Assembly: GCF_001653335.1 (NCBI RefSeq)
Contig: NZ_CP015079.1
Location: 2,790,001 to 2,854,000, forward strand
From: Nocardioides dokdonensis FR1436
Lineage (GTDB): Bacteria > Actinomycetota > Actinomycetes > Propionibacteriales > Nocardioidaceae
Reading direction: 5' to 3'
DNA length: 64,000 bases
Under the pieces are notes generated by a model, which was not told the DNA's origin, did no database searches, and saw nothing but the letters and a program-made list of their open reading frames with translations. This document shows positions 8,868-63,268 of the stretch, piece by piece. Within the stretch, counting starts at the first letter, position 1. Each line of letters opens with the position of its first letter. The position numbers and the translations under genes were made by a program.

Positions 8868-9554
8868 ATGACCGCTGACCCCACCGTCGACGCCCCGACC
8901 ACCCCGCTGCGGGTGATGGTGGTCGACGACCACCCGATGTGGCGCGACGCGGTCGAGCGTGACCTGGCCGCCGCCGGGCACGACGTGGTCGCCGTGGCCG
9001 CCACGGGCGACCAGGCGCTGGCCCGGTTCCCCGCCGCGCGCCCCCAGGTCGTCGTGCTCGACCTGCAGATCCCCGGACCCAGCGGCGTCGAGGTCACCGC
9101 CGGCGTGCTGGGCGTCGACCCCTCAGCGCGGGTGCTGATCCTCTCGGCCTCCGGCGAGCAGGCCGACGTGCTGGCCGCGGTCAAGGCCGGCGCCACCGGC
9201 TACCTGGTGAAGTCGGCGTCCCGCGAGGAGCTGCTGGCCGCGGTCGCCGCGGTGGCGGTCGGCGACCCGGTGTTCACCCCGGGCCTGGCCGGGCTGGTGC
9301 TGGGGGAGTACCGCCGCCTCTCCGACACCCCCGACGACGACCCCGACGGCCACCCCGAGCTGACCGAGCGGGAGACCGAGGTGCTGCGGATGGTCGCCAA
9401 GGGCTGGTCCTACAAGCAGATCGCCGAGCGGCTCGTCCTGTCGCACCGCACCGTGCAGAACCACGTGCAGAACACGCTGCGCAAGCTGCAGATGCACAAC
9501 CGGGTCGAGCTGACCCGCTGGGCCATCGAGCGCGGCCTCGACGACGATGAGTGA
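8868..9554 (+). CDS. MacR-like response regulator, NarL/LuxR type
   Basis: A 228-residue two-component regulator. The receiver domain has acidic residues VVDDHP at 19-24, the phospho-acceptor Asp65 in VVVLDLQIPG and the conserved Lys in GYLVKSASREE. The LuxR-type helix-turn-helix at the C-terminus reads LTERETEVLRMVAKG followed by SYKQIAERLVLSHRTVQNHV. It is the partner of the kinase at 7200. It has its own leaderless-type promoter, so it can be made independently of the kinase. The stop overlaps the start of the next gene by 8 bases. Confidence 0.9.
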   Translation: MTADPTVDAPTTPLRVMVVDDHPMWRDAVERDLAAAGHDVVAVAATGDQALARFPAARPQVVVLDLQIPGPSGVEVTAGVLGVDPSARVLILSASGEQADVLAAVKAGATGYLVKSASREELLAAVAAVAVGDPVFTPGLAGLVLGEYRRLSDTPDDDPDGHPELTERETEVLRMVAKGWSYKQIAERLVLSHRTVQNHVQNTLRKLQMHNRVELTRWAIERGLDDDE

Positions 9555-10461
9555 CGACGCCGGGTCCGGGCCGGAGTCGTCGCTGCTCGACCTCGCCGAT
9601 CGGCTCTACGGACTGGCGCTCGCCGAGTTCACCGGGTCGAGGGACGCACTGGTCAAGCAGCACAGGGGCACCGACCTGGCCCGCGACCTCAAGGCCCTGC
9701 GCAAGCCGTCGACCGCGGCCTGGGTGGTCGACCTGCTGGTGCGCCACGAGACCGACCAGGTCGAGCAGGTGCTGGCCGTGGGGTCCGCCCTGCGCCGGGC
9801 CCAGGCCAGCATGTCGGCCGAGGAGCTGCGCACCCTGACCAAGCAGCGCCGTCAGCTCACGGCCGCGCTCACGACCACGGCGCGGGGGCTGGCCCGGGAG
9901 CACGGGCTGCGCGTCACCGAGGCCGTCGCCGAGCAGGTGCAGGCCACGCTCACCGCGGCCATCCTCGACGAGGACTGTGCCCGGGCGGTGCGCAGCGGCC
10001 TGCTGGTCGCCCCGCTCGCCACCACCGGGGTCGACGACGTCGACGTCGGCGCGGCGGTGGCGCTGCCCCAGGCGCTGGGCTTCGAGGCCCGGGCGGTCGA
10101 CCGGCAGGAGGCCGCGCCCCCGGCGCGCCCGGACCTGCGCGTCGTACCCGATCCGGAGGCGGGTGCCCGGGCCCGGGCACCCGCCCAGGAAGCGCTGGAG
10201 GCGGCCGAGGCCGAGCTGGCCCTGGCCAGGGCCGCCCACGACGAGGCCGGGGCTCGGGTCGCGGAGCTGGAGGCCCGCGGCCTGCAGGTGCAGTCGGAGA
10301 TGGACGAGCTGCGCCGCCGCCTCGCCGACCTCGAGGCGTCGTACGAGGACGTCGAGGAGGAGCTGGAGGACGCCGAGGAGGAGCGCGACGAGGCACAGGC
10401 CGCCCTCGAGGAGGCCCAGGCCGAGGTCGAGCGTGCCGGCGCCGCCGAAGCCCTCCGCTGA
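9547..10461 (+). CDS. Conserved hypothetical protein with long acidic coiled coil
   Basis: A 304-residue soluble protein. The first ~170 residues form a helical domain (DLADRLYGLALAEF, RDLKALRKPSTAAWVVDLLV, EELRTLTKQRRQLTAAL); from about residue 210 to the end there is a continuous Glu-rich coiled coil (ELRRRLADLEASYEDVEEEL). No catalytic motif is visible. Similar proteins of unknown role occur in actinobacteria near the macR position, as far as I recall. It overlaps macR by 8 bases, so translation is probably coupled. Its TGA stop is the first three bases of the 22-bp repeat array that follows. Confidence 0.7.
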   Translation: MSDDAGSGPESSLLDLADRLYGLALAEFTGSRDALVKQHRGTDLARDLKALRKPSTAAWVVDLLVRHETDQVEQVLAVGSALRRAQASMSAEELRTLTKQRRQLTAALTTTARGLAREHGLRVTEAVAEQVQATLTAAILDEDCARAVRSGLLVAPLATTGVDDVDVGAAVALPQALGFEARAVDRQEAAPPARPDLRVVPDPEAGARARAPAQEALEAAEAELALARAAHDEAGARVAELEARGLQVQSEMDELRRRLADLEASYEDVEEELEDAEEERDEAQAALEEAQAEVERAGAAEALR

Positions 10462-10530
10462 CCCGGCGCAGATATCGCTCTGACCCGGCGCATATCTGCG
10501 CCGACTCAGAGTGATATCTGCGCCGACTCG
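10459..10530. repeat. 22-bp repeat array, locus A (two forward, two reverse units)
   Basis: Forward units are 10459-10480 (tgacccggcgcagatatc + gctc) and 10481-10502 (tgacccggcgcatatctg + cgcc). Reading the other strand at the same 22-base step gives units at 10508-10487 and 10530-10509 with GAGTCGGCGCAGATAT. The block is therefore a long imperfect palindrome between two convergent genes. Both genes end at a unit boundary: TGA 10459-10461 on the + strand and TGA 10508-10506 on the - strand. Related units occur at 54283 and 63192. It could act as a bidirectional terminator or be a mobile repeat. Confidence 0.8.
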
Positions 10531-51798: not shown

Positions 51799-52418
51799 GC
51801 AGTCTCTACAGCACCCAGGGGCCCGCGCGGAGCCGGATGCCCCGCATCGCCGGCGCCGCGGTCGAGCGGGCCCGCCTCACGGTGGTGCCGGTCGCCCGGA
51901 CCCGCGCCGCCAAGGTGCCCTTCGTGACCCTGGTGACCGTCCTGCTCCTCGGTGGGGTGGTCGGCCTGTTGCTGTTCAACACCTCGATGCAGCAGTCGGC
52001 CTTCACCGCGACCGCGCTCGAGCAGCGTGCCACCGTGCTGTCGGCGCGCCAGGAGGCGCTCTCCACCAAGCTCGAGCGGCTCCGCGAGCCGCAGGAGATC
52101 GCCCGCCGTGCCCAGAAGATGGGCATGCAGGTGCCCGCCGCACCGCTGTTCCTCGACCTCGCCGACGGGTCGGTCTCCGGCGACCCCAGCGGCGCGACCA
52201 CCGGCGCCGCGCTCCCGCTCGACCCGCTGCCCCCGGCCCGGCCCTCGCAGCTCGACCCGCCCGCGGTCGTGGTGACCCCGCCCGAGGGCGTGCTGGCCGA
52301 TGCGCGTGGCAACCGGGACGGCGACGGTGCTGGGGGTAGGAACAGCGACAAGCAGGACAAGCAGGACAAGAACAAGAAGTCGGACAAGAAGAAGCAGAGC
52401 CAGGGCCCGGACGCCTGA
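51795..52418 (+). CDS. ftsL: Cell division protein FtsL-like, with long charged tail
   Basis: A 207-residue bitopic division protein. One span ([21 protein letters not shown], about 42-62) is followed by the leucine-zipper-like outer coil [43 protein letters not shown]. It is nearly twice the usual FtsL length: after the coil comes a Pro-rich stretch and then a Lys/Asp/Gln repeat ([16 protein letters not shown]) whose codons are much poorer in GC than the rest. Position between rsmH and ftsI fixes the identity. It should recruit FtsI/FtsW with FtsQ. Confidence 0.85.
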
Positions 52419-52473
52419 CCCACCGCCCCACCCCCCACCAGCACACCCAGCAGCCAGCACCCGAAGGAGCCTC

Positions 52474-54285
52474 GTGCCGACCACGCAGCCGTCGCCGAGC
52501 AGGGCCAGCACCATCCGCCGCGGGCACCCGCACGTCCGGCTGCGGGTCGGGTTCGTGCTGATCGCGATGGTGCTCTCGCTCTTCGCCGCGCGCCTGGTCC
52601 AGCTGCAGGGCATCGACCCCAAGGCCTACGCCGAGATGGCGGCCGCCGAGGGGCTGGAGGAGGTCGTGCTGCCCGCTGAGCGGGGTGCGATCCTCGACCG
52701 CTTCGGTGAGCCGCTGGCCGAGTCGGCGGACGGGTTGATGGTCGTGGCCGACCCGGCGCTGGTGAACACCGACGAGGAGGGCCGCGAGGTCGACCGGGCC
52801 CCCGAGGTGGCCAAGCTGCTCTCGTCCAAGCTCGACGTCGACTACTTCACCCTGCTGAAGCGGCTGCGCACCGAGAGCCGGTTCCAGTACGTCGCCCGGG
52901 GCGTGCCCGCGGCGCAGGCCACCAAGGCGGTGGCCCGGGCCCGCGAGCTGGGCTACCAGGGCCTGTCCACCCATCGCGACCCGGTGCGCCAGTACCCCGC
53001 CGACGACGTGGCCGCCAACCTGGTCGGATTCCTGGGCACCCCGCTGGCCGACGGCACCCCGCAGCCGCTGGCCGGGTTCGAGCGCTCCTTCGACGGGCTG
53101 CTCTCCGGCACCGACGGCTCGGCGACCTTCGCCTCGGCCGCGGGCAACAAGGTCCCGCTGGGGGAGTCCACCGTCGTGGAGGCCCGTGACGGTCAGGACC
53201 TCACGACCACCATCGACCGCGAGCTGCAGTGGTACGCCCAGCGGGTGCTGCGCCAGACGGTGCAGCAGGCCCGCGGCGACTCCGGCGTCGCGGTCGTGCT
53301 GGACTCGCGCACCGGTGAGGTGCTGGCGCTGGCCGACCACCCGACGTTCGACGCGAACGCGCCGCTGGAGTCCGACGAGGCCGACCTCGGCTCGCGCGCG
53401 GTGAGCGACGTCTACGAGCCGGGCTCGGTCTCCAAGGTGCTGACCCTCTCCGCCCTCATCGACGCCGGGAAGGTCACTCCGCGCACCCGGCTGACGGTCC
53501 CGGGCTCGCTGGCCCGCCAGGACCGGACCATCGGCGACTGGTTCCCCCACGACACGATCCGGCTGACCCTGGCCGGGGTGCTGGCCAAGTCCTCCAACAT
53601 CGGCACGGTGCTCGCCTCCGACAAGTTCGACGACGGCCAGATGCGCCGCTACCTGGCGGCCTTCGGGCTCGGCTCGGCCACCGGCGCCGGCGTCCGCGGC
53701 GAGTCCGCCGGCATCCTGCCGGACCCCTCGCTGTGGACCAGCCAGACCCAGGACCGCATCGCCTTCGGCCAGTCGGTCTCGGTCAACGCGCTGCAGATGA
53801 CGGCCGCGGTCAACGCGATCGCCAACGACGGCGTCCGGATCGACCCGAGCCTGGTGCTCGGCAGTGCGACCACCGACTCCGGCGAGCAGATCGGCACCGA
53901 CCAGGCCACCACCAGCCAGGTCATCAGCTCCGACGCCGCGCGCAAGACGGCGCTGATGATGGAGCGGGTCGTCGACCCCGAGGCCGGCGTCGCCCCGGGC
54001 GCGCAGGTGCCCGGCTACCGCGTCGCCGGCAAGACCGGCACCGCGCAGCGCGCCAACTCCGAGTGCGGCTGCTACGACGGCACCTTCACGGTCTCCTTCG
54101 CCGGCTTCGCCCCCGCCGACGACCCGCGCTTCACCGTCTACGTCGTGGTCCAGAACCCCCGCAACGGTGGCGGCGGTGGGTCGGTCGCCGGCCCCGCGTT
54201 CGCCAAGATCACCGGGTACGCGCTGCGTCGCTACGCGGTGCCCCCCACCGGCACCCCCGCCTCGGACCTCCCTGTCGAGTGGTGA
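52474..54285 (+). CDS. ftsI: Penicillin-binding protein 3, septal transpeptidase FtsI
   Basis: A 603-residue class B PBP that crosslinks septal peptidoglycan. One N-terminal span (VGFVLIAMVLSLFAARLVQL) leads to the dimerisation domain (LPAERGAILDRFGEPLAES) and the transpeptidase domain: active-site SVSK at about 318-321, SSN at about 372 and KTGTA at about 519. GTG 52474 is preceded by AAGGAG at 4 bases. Its TGA stop (54283-54285) is the first three bases of a 22-bp repeat array. Confidence 0.95.
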   Translation: MPTTQPSPSRASTIRRGHPHVRLRVGFVLIAMVLSLFAARLVQLQGIDPKAYAEMAAAEGLEEVVLPAERGAILDRFGEPLAESADGLMVVADPALVNTDEEGREVDRAPEVAKLLSSKLDVDYFTLLKRLRTESRFQYVARGVPAAQATKAVARARELGYQGLSTHRDPVRQYPADDVAANLVGFLGTPLADGTPQPLAGFERSFDGLLSGTDGSATFASAAGNKVPLGESTVVEARDGQDLTTTIDRELQWYAQRVLRQTVQQARGDSGVAVVLDSRTGEVLALADHPTFDANAPLESDEADLGSRAVSDVYEPGSVSKVLTLSALIDAGKVTPRTRLTVPGSLARQDRTIGDWFPHDTIRLTLAGVLAKSSNIGTVLASDKFDDGQMRRYLAAFGLGSATGAGVRGESAGILPDPSLWTSQTQDRIAFGQSVSVNALQMTAAVNAIANDGVRIDPSLVLGSATTDSGEQIGTDQATTSQVISSDAARKTALMMERVVDPEAGVAPGAQVPGYRVAGKTGTAQRANSECGCYDGTFTVSFAGFAPADDPRFTVYVVVQNPRNGGGGGSVAGPAFAKITGYALRRYAVPPTGTPASDLPVEW

Positions 54286-54348
54286 CCCGGCCCAGATATC
54301 GCGCTGACCCGGCCCAGATATCGCGCTGACCCGGCCCACATGTCGCGC
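54283..54348 (+). repeat. 22-bp repeat array, locus B (three tandem forward units)
   Basis: Units at 54283-54304 and 54305-54326 are identical (tgacccggcccagatatc + gcgc); the third at 54327-54348 differs at two bases (acatgt for agatat). The array starts exactly at the ftsI stop codon and ends 3 bases before the murE -10 box. Confidence 0.9.
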
Positions 54349-54351
54349 TGC

Positions 54352-54357
54352 TAGCCT
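54352..54357 (+). promoter_or_regulatory. -10 box TAGCCT, leaderless promoter of murE
   Basis: TAGCCT ends 6 bases before ATG 54364, directly after the repeat array. murE and the genes behind it can thus be read apart from ftsI. Confidence 0.55.
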
Positions 54358-54363
54358 CCCGGC

Positions 54364-55956
54364 ATGCCTCGCCCCGACGTCCCGGCAACCCGTCCCGCTG
54401 ACCCTCCCCGCACCCCGGTGGGCGAGCTGGTCGGATGGGCCCGCCAGGCGCTGGCCATGGTCGAGCACCGAGGCGCCGACCCCGTCCTGAGCGGGGTCAG
54501 CCTCAGCAGCCAGCGCATCCGCGCCGGCGACCTGTACGCCGCCCTGCCGGGCGCCCGGGCGCACGGCGCCGACTTCGCCACGGACGCGCTCGAGGCCGGT
54601 GCGGTCGCGGTGCTGACCGACCCCGCGGGCGCGGAGCGGGTGCCGGCCGGCGTACCGCTGCTGGTGACCGAGGACCCGCGACGGATCCTGGGCCGCCTCA
54701 GCGCCCGGGTCTACGGCAACCCGGCGGAGAAGCTGACGATGATCGGGGTGACCGGCACCCAGGGCAAGACGACCACCACCCGCCTGCTCGAGGGCGGTCT
54801 GGTCGAGGCGGGGCTGGTCGGGGCGGTCATCGGCACGGTCGGCACCCGGGTGGCCGGCCGCGACGTCGTGACCTCGCTGACGACACCGGAGGCGCCCGAC
54901 CTGCACGGCTTGTTCGCGGTGATGGTCGAGCAGGGCGTCGACGTGTGTGCGATGGAGGTCTCCAGCCACGCGCTGGTGCTGGGACGGGTGGACGGGGTGG
55001 TCTTCGACCTCGCCGTGTTCTTGAACCTCGGGCGCGACCACCTCGACTTCCACGACACCGTCGAGGAGTACTACGCGGCCAAGGCATCGCTCTTCACCCC
55101 GGAGCGCGCCCGGCGCGCCCTGGTCAACCTCGACGACGAGCACGGGCGGCGCCTGGCGCAGGAGACCACGCTGCCGGTCGCGACCTTCTCCACCACCGGC
55201 GCCCCGGCCGACTGGGGCGTCACCGAGATCGCCGCCTCACCCAGCCGCACCGACTTCCGGGTCCTGGGCCCGGCCCACCGCGCCTTCGTCGCGGGGGTGC
55301 CGCTCGCGGGCTCCTTCAACGTCTCCAACGCACTCGCGGCGGTCGCCGCGGTGGGGGAGTCCGGGGCCGGTGACGCCGATCCGCTCGACGTCGCGGCCCA
55401 GGTCGCCGCCGGCATCAGCGGGCTCCCCGGCGTTCCCGGGCGCCTGGAGAGCGTCGAGGCCGGCCAGGACTTCGAGATCGTCGTCGACTACGCCCACAAG
55501 CCCGACGCGGTCGAGGCCGCGCTGGGGGCGCTGCGCCCGCTGACCGCGCAGCAGCTGGTCCTGGTCATCGGTGCCGGAGGTGACCGCGACACCGGCAAGC
55601 GAGCGGTGATGGGCGAGATCGGTGCCCGCCTGGCCGACGTCATCGTCGTCACCGACGACAACCCCCGCACCGAGGACCCCGCAGCCATCCGGGCGGCCGT
55701 GCTCGAGGGAGCCGGACAGGTGCCGGAGGCCGCGAGGGCCGAGGTGCTCGAGGTGGGCGACCGACGGGCCGCGATCGAGGCCGCGCTGCGCCGGGCCGGC
55801 ACGGGCGACATCGTTCTCGTGGCCGGCAAGGGTCACGAGTCGGGCCAGGAGGTGGCCGGCGTGGTGCACCCCTTCGACGACCGCCTGGTCTGCGCCGAGC
55901 TCGTGCGCACCCTCGGCCTCGGCGCCGGGCTCGTCGGCGAGGCGTCCTCGGGGTGA
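54364..55956 (+). CDS. murE: UDP-N-acetylmuramoyl-tripeptide synthase MurE
   Basis: A 530-residue Mur ligase adding the third stem residue. GVTGTQGKTTTTRLLEG is the ATP loop, TTPEAPDL and AMEVSSHALVLGRV the substrate blocks, VFLNLGRDHLDFH the Mg region. DNPRTEDP near the C-terminus is the motif for diaminopimelate (Lys-type enzymes differ here), as expected for Nocardioides-type DAP walls; GKGHESGQEV is the carboxyl-end signature. Its stop is overlapped by GTGATC of a five-codon mini-ORF, where murF would normally begin. Confidence 0.94.
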   Translation: MPRPDVPATRPADPPRTPVGELVGWARQALAMVEHRGADPVLSGVSLSSQRIRAGDLYAALPGARAHGADFATDALEAGAVAVLTDPAGAERVPAGVPLLVTEDPRRILGRLSARVYGNPAEKLTMIGVTGTQGKTTTTRLLEGGLVEAGLVGAVIGTVGTRVAGRDVVTSLTTPEAPDLHGLFAVMVEQGVDVCAMEVSSHALVLGRVDGVVFDLAVFLNLGRDHLDFHDTVEEYYAAKASLFTPERARRALVNLDDEHGRRLAQETTLPVATFSTTGAPADWGVTEIAASPSRTDFRVLGPAHRAFVAGVPLAGSFNVSNALAAVAAVGESGAGDADPLDVAAQVAAGISGLPGVPGRLESVEAGQDFEIVVDYAHKPDAVEAALGALRPLTAQQLVLVIGAGGDRDTGKRAVMGEIGARLADVIVVTDDNPRTEDPAAIRAAVLEGAGQVPEAARAEVLEVGDRRAAIEAALRRAGTGDIVLVAGKGHESGQEVAGVVHPFDDRLVCAELVRTLGLGAGLVGEASSG

Positions 55957-55970
55957 TCATCACCACCTGA
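55953..55970 (+). other. Five-codon mini-ORF at the expected start of murF
   Basis: GTG-ATC-ATC-ACC-ACC-TGA (VIITT, stop) overlaps the murE stop in the GTGA style of a coupled downstream gene. No further murF coding follows; 124 bases later mraY begins. It may be the residue of a deleted murF or a chance feature. Confidence 0.4.
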
Positions 55971-56094
55971 CCGGCGAGGCGTGGTCGTGGTGCCGCGCCA
56001 GGTGCGCCAAGATGTTCGGTGCCGGTGAGCCGGCGCGGGCGGCGTACGGCACCCGCGAGGACCAGACACAGACTGGGAACGAGGTGCGTGGGCC

Positions 56095-57183
56095 GTGAGG
56101 GCGATCCTGCTGGGCGGAGGCCTGGCTCTGTTGATCTCGCTGATCGGCACCCGTTTCGCGATCAAGCAGTTCACCCGGTGGGGCTACGGCCAGGAGGTCC
56201 GCGACGACGGACCCACCACCCACCACGTCAAGCGCGGCACCCCGACCATGGGCGGCGTCGCCATCATCGGCGCGACCGTGCTCGGCTACTTCGGGGCGAA
56301 GCTGATCACGCTGTCCCCGCCGACGGCCTCTGCGCTGCTCCTGCTGCTGCTCTTCGTCGGCATCGGTGCCGTCGGCTTCCTCGACGACTTCATCAAGATC
56401 TACAAGCAGCGCAGCCTCGGGTTGCGCAGCAAGGCCAAGATCGTCGGCCAGACCGTCGTCGGCCTCACCTTCGGCATCCTGGCCCTGAGCCCGTTGCTCG
56501 AGGACGACCGCGGCCAGCGGCCGGCGTCGTTCTCGCTGTCCTTCATCCGTGACCTCGACAGCTTCGTGCTGCCGGCGGTCGCGGTCGTCGTGCTGATCCT
56601 GGTCATGGTCATCGCCACCAGCAACGCCACCAACCTCACCGACGGTGCCGACGGTCTGCTGACCGGCTGCAGCATGATGGTCTTCGGCGCCTACACGATC
56701 GTGAACATCTGGCAGAACAACCAGTGGTGCGGCCAGTCCGACATCACCTACGGCAAGTGCTACGAGGTGCGTGACCCGCTCGACCTGGCGATCGTGGCGG
56801 CGGCCATCACCGGCGCCTGCTTCGGCTTCCTGTGGTGGAACGCCTCGCCGGCCCAGATCTTCATGGGCGACACCGGGTCGCTGGCGCTCGGCGCCGCGCT
56901 CGCCGGCCTGGCCGTGCTGACCCGTACCGAGCTGCTGCTGGTGATCGTCGGTGGCGTCTTCGTCATGGAGACCGTCTCGGTGATGCTGCAGGTGTCCTGG
57001 TTCAAGCTCAGCAGACGCCTCACCGGCACGCCCAAGCGGCTCTTCCGGATGGCTCCGATCCACCACACGTTCGACATGGCGTGGGGCGAGGTCACCATGG
57101 TGATCCGCTTCTGGATCCTCACCGGCCTGTGCGTCGCGGGCGGCCTCGGCATCTTCTACGCCGAGTGGGTGGCCGGCACGTGA
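56095..57183 (+). CDS. mraY: Phospho-N-acetylmuramoyl-pentapeptide transferase
   Basis: A 362-residue membrane enzyme with about ten spans that makes lipid I from UDP-MurNAc-pentapeptide and undecaprenyl phosphate. HHVKRGTPTMGG, the catalytic FLDDFIKIY, NATNLTDGADGL and FMGDTGSLALG are the family motifs; APIHHTFDMAWGE is the HHH-region end. GTG 56095 has a GAGGTG site about 10 bases upstream. It stands directly behind murE; murF is absent here. It overlaps murD (GTGA). Confidence 0.95.
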   Translation: MRAILLGGGLALLISLIGTRFAIKQFTRWGYGQEVRDDGPTTHHVKRGTPTMGGVAIIGATVLGYFGAKLITLSPPTASALLLLLLFVGIGAVGFLDDFIKIYKQRSLGLRSKAKIVGQTVVGLTFGILALSPLLEDDRGQRPASFSLSFIRDLDSFVLPAVAVVVLILVMVIATSNATNLTDGADGLLTGCSMMVFGAYTIVNIWQNNQWCGQSDITYGKCYEVRDPLDLAIVAAAITGACFGFLWWNASPAQIFMGDTGSLALGAALAGLAVLTRTELLLVIVGGVFVMETVSVMLQVSWFKLSRRLTGTPKRLFRMAPIHHTFDMAWGEVTMVIRFWILTGLCVAGGLGIFYAEWVAGT

Positions 57184-59961: not shown

Positions 59962-61062
59962 ATGCGCATCCTCCTCGCCGGTGGCGGTACCGCCGGCCAC
60001 ACCTCGCCCCTGCTCGCGACCGCGGACGCCCTGCGCCGCCTCGACCCCACGGTCGAGATCACCTGCCTGGGCACCCCTCGCGGCCTCGAGAACACCGTCG
60101 TGCCCGCGGCCGGCTACCCGTTGGAGCTGGTGCCGCCGGTGCCGCTGCCCCGCAAGCCCGGCCTCGACCTGCTGCGGGTGCCGGGTCGCATCCGCCGCGC
60201 GGTCCGTGAGACCCACGCCGTGCTCGACCGCGTCGACCCCGACGTCGTGGTCGGCTACGGCGGCTACGTCTCGGTCCCGGCCTACCTCGCCGCCCGCAAG
60301 CGCCGTCTGCCCGTCGTCGTGCACGAGCAGAACGCGCTGCCCGGCCTCGGCAACAAGCTCGGCGCCCGCGTGGCCGCCCGCCGTGGCGGCCGGGTCGCGG
60401 TCAGCTTCCCCGACACCCCGCTGCCCGGTGCCGAGTACGTCGGCCTGCCGATCCGCCGGATGATCTCCACCCTCGACCGCGACGCGCTGCGGGCCGAGGC
60501 GCGCGCGTTCTTCGGTCTCGACCCCGACCGGCCCACCCTCGTGGTCACCGGCGGCTCCCAGGGCGCCCGCCGGCTCAACCAGGCCGTGTCCGGCGCCGTC
60601 CGGCAGCTCGGTGCGGCCGGGGTGCAGGTGCTGCACGTCATCGGCCCGAAGGGCGAGATCGACCCCGGCGCCGCCACCGCGACCGGCACGCCGTACGTCG
60701 TGGAGCACTTCGTGGACCGCATGGACTACGCGCTCGCCGCCGCCGACCTGATGGTGTGCCGCAGCGGCGCCAACAGCGTCGTGGAGGCGGCCGCCACCGG
60801 CGTCCCGGCGGTCTTCGTGCCGCTGCCGATCGGCAACGGCGAGCAGGAGCTCAACGCCCGTCCGGTGGTCGACGCCGGAGGAGCGCTGCTGGTGCGCGAC
60901 GAGGAGCTGACCACCGGCTGGGTGGTCGAGCACGTCGTGCCGCTGGTCACCGACGCGGCGCGCCTCGCCACGATGAGCGCCGCCGCGCGCCACCTCGTCC
61001 CGCGCGACGCCGACGAGACGCTGGCCCGCATCGTGCTCGAGGCCGGGGGAGCGCGGCGATGA
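59962..61062 (+). CDS. murG: UDP-GlcNAc:lipid I GlcNAc transferase
   Basis: A 366-residue GT-B glycosyltransferase that converts lipid I to lipid II on the inner membrane face. MRILLAGGGTAGHTSPLLATADAL is the first Gly-rich loop, VVGYGGYVSVPAYLAA the second, VVTGGSQGARRLN the third; CRSGANSVVEAAATGVPAVFVPLP is the UDP-GlcNAc site. ATG 59962 is preferred over 59953 because of the -10 spacing. Its stop overlaps the murC start (ATGA). Confidence 0.94.
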   Translation: MRILLAGGGTAGHTSPLLATADALRRLDPTVEITCLGTPRGLENTVVPAAGYPLELVPPVPLPRKPGLDLLRVPGRIRRAVRETHAVLDRVDPDVVVGYGGYVSVPAYLAARKRRLPVVVHEQNALPGLGNKLGARVAARRGGRVAVSFPDTPLPGAEYVGLPIRRMISTLDRDALRAEARAFFGLDPDRPTLVVTGGSQGARRLNQAVSGAVRQLGAAGVQVLHVIGPKGEIDPGAATATGTPYVVEHFVDRMDYALAAADLMVCRSGANSVVEAAATGVPAVFVPLPIGNGEQELNARPVVDAGGALLVRDEELTTGWVVEHVVPLVTDAARLATMSAAARHLVPRDADETLARIVLEAGGARR

Positions 61063-63194
61063 GGCTGCCGGTCCCTGACGCCATCCCCGGCGTGGCCGAG
61101 CTTGGGCGGGTGCACTTCATCGGCATCGGCGGTGCCGGGCTGTCCGCCATCGCCCGGATCATGGCGGCCCGCGGTGTCACCGTCACCGGCAGCGACGACC
61201 AGGACACCCCGTTCCTGCCCTCGTTGCGCGAGCTCGGCGTCACCTGCCACCTCGGCTACGACGCCTCCCACCTCGGCGACCTGGGCCCCGACGACGCCGT
61301 CGTGGTGACCACCGCCGCACGGGAGGACAACCCCGAGGTGCTCGAGGCCCGCCGCCGCGGCCTGCGGCTGCTGCCGCGCTCGGCCGGCCTGGCCTCGGTG
61401 ATGGCCGACCGGCGGGTCCTGGCCGTCGCGGGCACGCACGGCAAGACCACCACCACCTCCCTGCTCACGGTCGCCCTGCTGGCCTGCGACACCGACCCGA
61501 CGTACGCCGTCGGTGGCGTTCTCTCGGCCACCGGCCGCAACGCCGACGCGGGCTCGGGTGAGCTGTTCGTCGCCGAGGCCGACGAGAGCGACGGGGCCTT
61601 CCTGGTCTACCGCCCGCACGCCGCGATCGTGACCAACGTCGGGGCCGACCACCTCGACACCTGGGGCACCGAGGAGGCCTACCGGGCCGCCTTCACCGAG
61701 TTCGTGGCCACCATCGACGCCGACGGGTTCCTGGTCGCCTGCGTCGACGACCCGGGGGCCGAGGCGCTGCGCCCCGTCGCCGAGGCCCGCGGGCTCACCT
61801 TCGTGGGCGTGGGGGAGGGCGAGCACGCCGACCTGCGCGCGCTGGACGTGGTCCTCGAGGGGACCACCTCCACCTTCACCGTCGTCGACCGCGGCACCGA
61901 GCTGGGGCGGGTGCGCCTGGCGATCCCGGGCCGCCACTACGTGCTCGACGCGCTCGCCGCGCTGGGTGTCGGGCTGCGCCTGGGCCTGCCCTTCGAGGGC
62001 CTGAAGGCCGGGCTCGAGGCCTTCGGCGGCACCGGTCGTCGCATGGAGGCCAAGGGAGAGGCCGGCGGCGTGCGCGTCTACGACTCCTACGCCCACCAGC
62101 CCATCGAGATCGCCGGCGACCTCGAGGCCGCCCGCTCCGTCGCCGGGCAGGGCCGCGTGATCGTGGCCTTCCAGCCGCACCTGGTCTCGCGCACCCGGAT
62201 CTTCGGTGCGCGTATGGGCGAGGCGCTCGGTGCCGCCGACGAGGTGGTCGTCCTCGGCGTCTACCTCGCCCGCGAGGACGCCGACCCCGCCGTCACCGGC
62301 GCCCTGGTCGCCGACCACGTGCCGCTGCCCGCCGAGCGGGTCGCCTTCGTGCCCGACCTCGACGACGTGCCCGCAGCGCTGGTGGCCCGGGCCCGGCCCG
62401 GCGACCTGGTGCTCACGCTGGGTGCCGGCAGCGTCACCGAGATCGGCCCCGGGTCCTCGCACTGCTGCGGGAGGGCAGCGGTGGCTGAGTCCTCACGGCG
62501 CCGGTTCGCCCGGCGCCAGTGGGCCCGGCGCTGGCTGCGGCTGCGGTACGTCGTCATCGGCGTGCTCACTCTCGCGCTGCTCGCTGTGGGCGCGTGGGCG
62601 CTGTGGTTCTCGTCGTTGCTGGCCGTCGAGAAGGTCGAGGTCGTGGGCGCCGACGTGCTCTCCGCCGAGGAGGTCGAGGCCGCGGCCGCGGTGCCGATGG
62701 GGGACCCCGTCGCGCGCGTCGACCTCGACGCGGTCCGGGCCCGGGTCGAGTCGTTGGCCGTGGTGCGCAGCGCCGACGTGACCCGGGCGTGGCCCGACGG
62801 CGTCCGGGTGGCCGTCGAGGAGCGGGTGGCCGTCGCCGTCGTGCGCATCGGCGCCGTGCTGCGCGGGATGGACTCCGACGGCGTGGTCTTCCGCGACTAC
62901 CGCGAGCCGCCCGGCGACCTGCCCCGCGTCGACGCGCTCTCCGGGGTGACCAGCGAGGCGCTGCGCGAGGGCGCAGCCGTCGTCTCGGCGCTGCCCGAGG
63001 ACCTCGCCGCCGGCGTCGACCACGTCCAGGTCGGCTCCGTCGACCAGATCCGCCTCGTCCTGCGCGACGGGCGGCAGGTGGTCTGGGGGAGCGCCTCGGA
63101 CTCCGAGCAGAAGGCGGCGGTCCTCGAGGTCCTCCTGCAGCAGGACGGGAAGGTCTTCGACGTCTCCGTGCCCGCCACCCCCACCACCCGCTGA
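61059..63194 (+). CDS. murC: MurC running in frame into FtsQ (single open frame)
   Basis: The first ~462 codons are UDP-MurNAc--L-alanine ligase: VHFIGIGGAGLSAIARIM, AVAGTHGKTTTTSLL near residue 124, FVAEADESDGAFLVYRPHAAI and GGTGRRMEAKGEAGGVRVYDSYAHQP are intact. After TEIGP the frame reads GSSHCCGRAAVAESS and continues into FtsQ without a stop (711 codons in total). In the -1-shifted frame the same DNA reads RVLALLREGSGG and stops at 62486-62488, the normal MurC end. A one-base loss in the CCCCGGG run (62447-62453) explains this. It is either a true fusion, a frameshift site or a base-call error. Confidence 0.85.
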   Translation: MRLPVPDAIPGVAELGRVHFIGIGGAGLSAIARIMAARGVTVTGSDDQDTPFLPSLRELGVTCHLGYDASHLGDLGPDDAVVVTTAAREDNPEVLEARRRGLRLLPRSAGLASVMADRRVLAVAGTHGKTTTTSLLTVALLACDTDPTYAVGGVLSATGRNADAGSGELFVAEADESDGAFLVYRPHAAIVTNVGADHLDTWGTEEAYRAAFTEFVATIDADGFLVACVDDPGAEALRPVAEARGLTFVGVGEGEHADLRALDVVLEGTTSTFTVVDRGTELGRVRLAIPGRHYVLDALAALGVGLRLGLPFEGLKAGLEAFGGTGRRMEAKGEAGGVRVYDSYAHQPIEIAGDLEAARSVAGQGRVIVAFQPHLVSRTRIFGARMGEALGAADEVVVLGVYLAREDADPAVTGALVADHVPLPAERVAFVPDLDDVPAALVARARPGDLVLTLGAGSVTEIGPGSSHCCGRAAVAESSRRRFARRQWARRWLRLRYVVIGVLTLALLAVGAWALWFSSLLAVEKVEVVGADVLSAEEVEAAAAVPMGDPVARVDLDAVRARVESLAVVRSADVTRAWPDGVRVAVEERVAVAVVRIGAVLRGMDSDGVVFRDYREPPGDLPRVDALSGVTSEALREGAAVVSALPEDLAAGVDHVQVGSVDQIRLVLRDGRQVVWGSASDSEQKAAVLEVLLQQDGKVFDVSVPATPTTR
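62481..63194 (+). CDS. ftsQ: Cell division protein FtsQ, internal start
   Basis: A 237-residue bitopic division protein if started at GTG 62481, which has a strong GGGAGGG ribosome site 5 bases upstream. A basic cytoplasmic tail (SSRRRFARRQWARRWLRLR) precedes one span (YVVIGVLTLALLAVGAWALWF); the POTRA domain follows (LLAVEKVEVVGADVLSAEEVE) and then the beta domain (VALRGMDSDGVVF-like region, LRDGRQVVWG). It joins FtsL and FtsB-type proteins in the divisome. In this sequence it is also the C-terminal part of the murC frame. Its stop begins another 22-bp repeat array. Confidence 0.9.
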   Translation: MAESSRRRFARRQWARRWLRLRYVVIGVLTLALLAVGAWALWFSSLLAVEKVEVVGADVLSAEEVEAAAAVPMGDPVARVDLDAVRARVESLAVVRSADVTRAWPDGVRVAVEERVAVAVVRIGAVLRGMDSDGVVFRDYREPPGDLPRVDALSGVTSEALREGAAVVSALPEDLAAGVDHVQVGSVDQIRLVLRDGRQVVWGSASDSEQKAAVLEVLLQQDGKVFDVSVPATPTTR

Positions 63195-63268
63195 CCCGGC
63201 CCGCATGTCGCGCCGACCCGGCGAGAAATGACGCGGGTCGCGGGCGTGTCGGCGCGATGCGGGGTCGG
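63192..63268. repeat. 22-bp repeat array, locus C (two forward units, one degenerate reverse unit)
   Basis: The unit 63192-63213 (tgacccggcccgcatgtc + gcgc) differs by one base from the third unit at locus B, and again begins with the stop TGA, that of ftsQ. A diverged unit follows at 63214-63235, and a reverse-orientation remnant (CGGCGCGATGCGGGGTCGG) at about 63250-63268. Confidence 0.7.

Follow-up and report, generated by a model that had tools for sequence, protein, structure and literature searches.

The closest described systems to the repeat studied here are the REPs and the MIRU of Mycobacterium tuberculosis. In the portions of the published accounts that were available, REPs are described as short extragenic elements that are present in more than 100 copies and act as landing sites for insertion sequences (PMC1525189, PMC2817692), those that target them being IS3, IS110, IS4, IS256 and IS5 (PMC1525189). 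The same portions describe a GTAG/GGAG-type head in an imperfect palindrome, and state that REPs facilitate Rho-dependent termination (PMC2817692) and that they are not specific terminators (PMC1525189). The MIRU are described in the available text as units of 40–100 bp at 41 places (PMC2734929).

The array located between ftsI and murE of Nocardioides dokdonensis FR1436, within a 64,000-nucleotide stretch of the chromosome that was analysed as a whole (the window), belongs to a REP/MIRU-like dispersed extragenic repeat that nevertheless fails the defining tests of both systems because of the form of the unit, RAYT, and the unit length. Set against the available descriptions, the likeness to REP/BIME consists of short, extragenic, high-copy elements with facing copies, on which specific insertion sequences land. 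However, the Nocardioides arrays are direct 22-bp tandem units and not palindromes, they have no GTAG/GGAG-type head, their first unit often serves as a stop codon, and no Y1 transposase was found in the four genomes searched. The insertion sequences concerned are of the ISL3 and IS30 types, which are outside the list in the available part of PMC1525189. The REPs hit by IS1397 or IS621 in that same part resemble these arrays in that insertion occurs at a fixed place of the repeat, whereas here two unrelated insertion-sequence families use two places of one 22-bp unit. With MIRU and VNTR, as far as the available text describes them, the arrays share an actinobacterial host, dispersal, tandem arrangement, intergenic position and variable unit number; they differ from the 40–100 bp MIRU in having a 22-bp unit, in being oriented with the upstream gene, in lying mostly between convergent genes, and in a unit sequence that has shifted between species. 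Searches of the open-access literature brought up no account of arrays of this kind from Nocardioides.

The ftsI-murE locus

Read directly from the window, the array consists of two copies of TGACCCGGCCCAGATATCGCGC followed by TGACCCGGCCCACATGTCGCGC, which has two changes, at positions 54283–54348. The description in the earlier note of three 22-bp units, two identical and one altered twice, is thus correct, and the array is the strongest tandem repeat of the window, with a TRF period of 22, 3.1 copies and a score of 122 that is the highest of 120 rows. The same note placed the array between ftsI and murE. Strictly, it does not follow ftsI but overlaps it: the ftsI reading frame ends at 54285, and unit 1 opens with the three bases of its TGA stop. 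When units are counted from GA, the last of the three reaches 54349, and the murE ATG (54364) follows 14 bp on. The features of the locus and of the other family members are listed in Table 1. The best NCBIfam matches of the ftsI reading frame were families of penicillin-binding proteins, below their curated cut-offs.

Table 1. Features of the ftsI-murE locus, other family members in the window, and full insertion-sequence copies in the chromosome (window positions, except where G000, the source genome, is named)
Feature	Position	Strand	Remarks
ftsI, class B penicillin-binding protein	52300..54285	+	ORF; start possibly further in
ftsI TGA stop	54283..54285	+	also start of unit 1
ftsI-murE tandem array, three 22-bp units	54283..54350	+	reads in ftsI direction
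Unit 1, from GA	54284–54305	+	
Unit 2, from GA	54306–54327	+	
Unit 3, from GA	54328–54349	+	
TAGCCT, putative −10 of a leaderless murE promoter	54352..54357	+	6 nt before ATG
murE	54364..55956	+	NF001124, 576 bits, cut-off 476
Second window member, one forward unit facing two reverse	10460..10529	.	reverse units 10486–10529
Third window member, single unit	63193..63214	+	its TGA ends the murC-ftsQ ORF (60756–63194)
ISL3-type insertion sequence	G000 1983968–1985413, 2150494, 4213814, 4260967		PF01610 transposase
IS30-type insertion sequence	G000 1985460–1986702, 3013980, 3985395		HTH_38 + rve

An intrinsic terminator at ftsI-murE was considered and rejected. A scan of 54100–54600, which covered this locus only, found no GC-rich hairpin with a T run, an Rfam search of 52000–57000 returned no family match, and the fold of the array was nothing unusual against shuffled sequence (z +0.14). 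The leaderless-type murE promoter that had been proposed fits the TANNNT motif before the start, and in 24 of 36 murE loci a promoter-like TANNNT precedes a candidate start by 6–10 nt, a count made with a permissive pattern and no shuffle control. A sigma-70 consensus scan found nothing.

Among the relatives, each species being represented by one genome, the same place holds two units in the sister species G013, two in N. cremeus SOB44 (G185) and five in G221, against three in G000, with alike flanks. The unit count is therefore not invariant, and the expectation that it would vary holds at the level of species, from two to five units among these four. Of 37 murE loci of relatives, 34 lack any tandem pair of the head. 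The suggestion that the identical units reflect a recent expansion is compatible with these data, but the units of G000 are alike across loci, so that the identity of neighbours need not date the ftsI-murE array.

A dispersed family of direct 22-bp units

The ftsI-murE array is one member of a dispersed 22-bp tandem family with dozens of arrays in the chromosome. A DNA search of G000 gave 61 matches, and GACCCGGCNCANATNTCGCGCT, with up to 3 mismatches allowed, gave 184 matches in all (106 forward and 78 reverse, with places given for 100 of the 184), compared to 4 for the reversed control. Within the window the unit pattern, also with up to 3 mismatches, was matched 5 times, compared to 0.04 expected from shuffles. 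A profile applied at score 12 to 489,746 bp of G000 called 255 units in 73 clusters, while the reversed profile called 2; this sequence comprises the window and 46 further stretches of G000 that were picked for holding matches, and unit densities in it are therefore not genome averages. The view of the ftsI-murE array as a special element of that locus accordingly gives way to that of one cluster among 73 in 490 kb.

The profile consensus of the unit in G000 is GASYCGGCSCARATRTCNCGCY. The distance between neighbouring units is exactly 22 bp in 153 of 153 pairs, and the units abut without spacers, in runs of 1–9; a CRISPR test likewise found no unique spacers. The bases A2, C5-G6-G7-C8, C10 and A13 are near-invariant, with variable positions between them. 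The unit is bipartite: its GACCCGGC head is shared with other Nocardioides, while the sequence of its 14-nt half depends on the species or clade and shifts in step over loci. In the second window member, the TGA of the forward unit at 10460 is the stop of the reading frame 9547–10461, and the glycerol-kinase-like reading frame at 10506 has its end inside the array, in contrast to the cases in which the native stop is kept. At the place of the single unit at 63193, three units were called in G013.

Gene ends and the stop codon

Genes were called with a simple home-made codon-usage caller. A gene reads into the array in 72 of 102 same-strand runs of G000, and its stop falls at the first unit in 37 of these, 2–30 nt upstream in 27, and inside or beyond the array in 8. 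A stop at the first unit is made up of the base before the unit and the first two bases of the unit. Arrays thus read along the gene that they follow, and the first unit gives the TGA stop in about half. The register is also apparent from the gene ends themselves: among the 66 that have a unit within 40 nt, TGACCCGGC runs from the stop in 39, compared to 3 of 358 array-less ends, and TGACC stands at the stop in 53, compared to 70 of the 358 background ends. The ends of MIRU overlap stop and start codons as well. A translational safety net of stops in three frames was rejected as a purpose of the arrays: only 78 of the 256 units have T at position 22, so that the TGA is not kept within arrays.

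In terms of gene context, 40 of the 69 clusters that lie outside gene calls are between convergent genes; among all 442 gene pairs, 89 are convergent. Where a single-direction cluster is flanked by codirectional genes, it runs with them in 14 of 15 cases, and seven further codirectional clusters contain units of both directions. The rule of stop and orientation is broken by seven of the 69 clusters, whose neighbouring genes were called as divergent (three of these clusters adjoin an insertion sequence), and by four of the 73 clusters, all of them single units, which lie within gene calls.

Where this could be checked, the proteins are not truncated by the array. FtsI ends in V(E/D/V)W-stop at 21 of 34 array-less murE loci of relatives (18 of them VEW-stop), as it does in the four array-bearing species, and its end was not recognised at the other 13. 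At locus 1448096 the reading frame of G000 ends in ..LVS-TGACCCGG and that of the array-less G013 in ..LVS-TAG, with the same final residues.

The stop offset was surveyed in the relatives for runs of at least two units into which a gene reads. It was as in G000 in 21 of 27 runs of G013, 4 of 4 of G164, 5 of 9 of G185 and 5 of 9 of G224, and in a minority of runs of G221 (3/10) and G008 (3/8); it was seen in 0 of 2 runs of G294. In G177 the stop stood 10 nt upstream of the array in 4 of 5 runs. Reversed-control hits in this survey numbered 8 against 131 units in G013, 5 against 33 in G008 and 4 against 48 in G224.

Conserved sites and changing sequence in relatives

Among the 57 relatives searched, only the sister species G013, whose MurE is 86% identical to that of G000, gave a strong match. 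The matches in G026 and G042 were weak, and no tandem repeat was found in the stretch of G026 examined. Across 341 genomes of the family, G000 included, tandem pairs of the head were counted 156 times in G013, 165 in G221, 126 in G185 and 95 in G000, where the control is high (36) because the reversed pattern CGGCCCAG occurs within the unit. Fewer were counted in G347 (13), G177 and G224 (12 each), and G164 and G008 (8 each); any such pair was present in 66 of the 341 genomes, mostly once or twice. In the seven species examined besides G013, the head and pitch were again present, and the 14-nt half was most divergent in G177 (RTCYGTCASSYCGA), N. acrostichi CBS4Y-1 (G164; RCSAGTTTTCRSGT) and N. 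nematodiphilus R-N-C8 (G224; CCTCSSRCACCGCY). The search pattern demanded GACCCGGC at 22 bp, so that a common head and pitch are in part built into the result, and any family with another head would have escaped it.

The sites are conserved between the sister species. When the flanks of the G000 clusters were located in G013, an array was found at 19 of 22 sites, a fraction that is inflated because all 14 of the first G013 stretches had been chosen for arrays, 10 of them overlapping array stretches of G000. In a fairer subset, reached only by G013 stretches placed by synteny from G000 arrays, 7 of 9 sites were occupied, with a G013 unit near the expected place already seen for three of the clusters. 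The 22 sites include 2867006, counted on one flank, and exclude 871691 (one weak flank) and seven clusters matched only through an insertion sequence; the G013 profile used here, at a low threshold, gave 16 reversed-control hits against 139 units. The remaining three sister loci are empty, so the array is not indispensable.

The sequence at these conserved sites has turned over. At 18 orthologous loci the identity of units between G000 and G013 is 0.719, compared to 0.714 for non-orthologous loci, and 820 of 5000 permutations were as high. Unit identity within species is 0.778 in G000 and 0.724 in G013; the latter is hardly higher than that between species, so that, judged on mean identity, only the units of G000 are clearly homogeneous. 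Firm evidence of a coordinated change comes from unit position 15, which across loci is a purine in 0.89 of the units of G000 and a pyrimidine in 0.95 of those of G013, with smaller shifts at positions 11, 12 and 14.

Insertion sequences

Two unrelated families of insertion sequences target the arrays. The chromosome of G000 contains four full copies of an ISL3-type element and three of an element with the domain pair HTH_38 and rve, which we take to be of the IS30 type; other matches genome-wide are short and partial. Units were found at the flanks of all 7 of 7 full copies. The ISL3 element lies in the unit head, at the same place within one base in 4 of 4 copies, with a target duplication of 7–8 bp (CGACTCGG, CGAGTCGG, CGACCCGG and TCAGTCGG), and 3 of 3 copies of the IS30-type element lie at about unit positions 18–19, flanked by a duplication of 2 bp. 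An IS30-type copy in G013 (523492–524731), 87% identical, has units at its flanks too. That the units are excision footprints of insertion sequences was rejected, the 14-nt half being by eye unlike the ends of the elements.

RNA folding and strand composition

Facing arrays fold far better than shuffled sequence (mean z −8.1, n = 29), while single-direction arrays fold slightly better (mean z −1.7, n = 33), with 6 of the 33 below −3. A hairpin maintained by compensatory change was rejected, as paired units showed no clear excess of identity: in 52 unit pairs from the arms of facing arrays, 16.60 of 22 positions are identical, compared to 16.30 ± 0.21 when shuffled, and the identity per position in 28 array pairs ranges from z −1.7 to +2.3. 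The arms do not covary, and selection for the hairpin is therefore unsupported. Most simply, every gene end would carry a forward array of its own, and a hairpin would arise wherever two arrays meet. In the facing arms, unit position 18 is the same in 9 of 52 pairs, compared to 16.6 expected (z −1.7 per locus); a mismatch there is perhaps kept, weakening perfect palindromes, but the tendency is too slight to support a conclusion.

The array strand is C-rich. Its C-G skew is 0.166 (n = 66), a small excess over the 0.053 of the comparison set (n = 337), and YC dinucleotides number 16.4 per 66 nt in arrays and 13.0 in the comparison set. A strand of this composition might suit Rho, although the indication is weak.

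Possible roles and origin of the arrays

Of the roles considered, that of a transcript 3′ boundary at gene ends is the most likely, and we infer it tentatively. C-rich forward units placed directly after the stop, the point at which ribosomes come off, would promote termination by Rho or by a bound protein; between convergent genes, two facing arrays would add a long hairpin; and at ftsI-murE, the array would lower read-through into murE, a gene that may possess a leaderless promoter of its own. The position behind the stop, the orientation with transcription, the convergent context, the C-rich strand and the hairpins of meeting arrays all favour such a boundary, while the lack of an unusual fold in the ftsI-murE array and in most single arrays, the lack of covariation between arms, the empty orthologous sites and the divergent contexts oppose it. 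Close behind comes the quite possible reading that the repeat is selfish or neutral and has no function, spreading by joining at TGACC(C) and surviving at stops because insertions elsewhere are purged. The excess of TGACC at array-bearing stops is what a target-site model predicts, and the absence of a locus signature in orthologous arrays is what ongoing turnover predicts; the native C-termini that have been kept and the landing of two insertion sequences in the arrays point the same way. However, positions have been kept at 19 of 22 loci despite the turnover of units, a search that covered Y1 transposases identified no mobilising gene, and very different 14-nt halves occur with one and the same head and 22-bp pitch, which suggests that the head is recognised, although both features were demanded by the search. 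If the arrays instead served a DNA-binding protein, as a nucleoid organiser or a roadblock to polymerase, their units would lie on one helix face every two turns, and protein and unit would coevolve. The invariant spacing, the scatter of near-invariant bases among variable ones and the purine-to-pyrimidine change at position 15 between G000 and G013 are consistent with this, but a purely binding role leaves the coincidence of the first unit with the stop codon unexplained, and we consider it rather improbable.

The reading of the earlier note, in which the array is an insulator specific to ftsI-murE, has in its favour the promoter-like TANNNT just before the murE start and the presence of an array between these genes in four related species. 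It is very unlikely given the 73 clusters in the stretches of G000 examined, the 34 of 37 murE loci of relatives that are without a tandem pair, and the missing fold or terminator at the locus itself. Hardly credible is a classical REP/BIME mobilised by RAYT. The high copy number, the extragenic position, the facing arrays and the insertion-sequence hot spots do recall REPs as the available parts of PMC1525189 and PMC2817692 describe them, but PF01797 (Y1, the IS200/IS605-type transposase) was matched in 0 of 4 genomes (G000, G013, G185 and G221) while its control was positive in 5 of 14 named genomes, and the unit is non-palindromic, without a GTAG-type head, in arrays of direct repeats. Identity with RAYT/REP is contradicted, and mobilisation by RAYT is excluded as far as PF01797 goes. 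A more speculative and somewhat doubtful proposal is that the arrays propagate themselves throughout the genus, joining exactly at native TGACC stops, where the repeat then supplies the stop codon, and being overwritten by new copies that retain the GACCCGGC head and the 22-bp pitch. Continual overwriting at the same sites would make the arrays of a genome change sequence together.

Were self-propagation of this kind true, it would imply either machinery, so far undescribed, for writing short tandem DNA at the ends of genes, or a factor acting in trans that holds the arrays in step. REPs and other well-known families are palindromic and RAYT-linked, whereas the Nocardioides family is direct and stop-registered, with no Y1 transposase in four genomes. 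The joint shift of array sequence between species is unusual. With a change that has come about at sites which two sister species share, the family is a natural system in which to ask how bacteria keep dispersed short repeats alike. With regard to the favoured 3′-boundary role, the arrays provide a large set of candidate 3′-end boundary elements in a high-GC genus, in which terminators without T-runs are poorly understood. They also provide two insertion sequences with a defined target.

Other repeats and the murE neighbourhood

Several minor observations were made alongside. In the window, murF is absent from the gap between murE and mraY (55956–56095), which is its usual place in such clusters. 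The single reading frame at 60756–63194 matches MurC (119–564) and then FtsQ (582–811), an apparent murC-ftsQ fusion. Another short repeat, CGCCACGCCTG, stands upstream of murE in relatives, twice in G011 and G001 and as one copy in G015, behind a reading frame whose end is unlike FtsI. The head-and-pitch pattern taken three times matched 91 contig stretches, many of them of N. cremeus, with single ones from Streptomyces and other taxa. A second short repeat of G000, GACCGGTCGGTGGTGCANA, has four matches at three places (3106599, 871845 and 1496923), two of the copies being 22 bp apart directly behind an array of the main family. G042, a genome from a different family of the order, has an array that starts with TGACCCGGCCC and is made up of three 20-bp units TGACCCGGCCCACCGAGCAC, with the same head at a different pitch.
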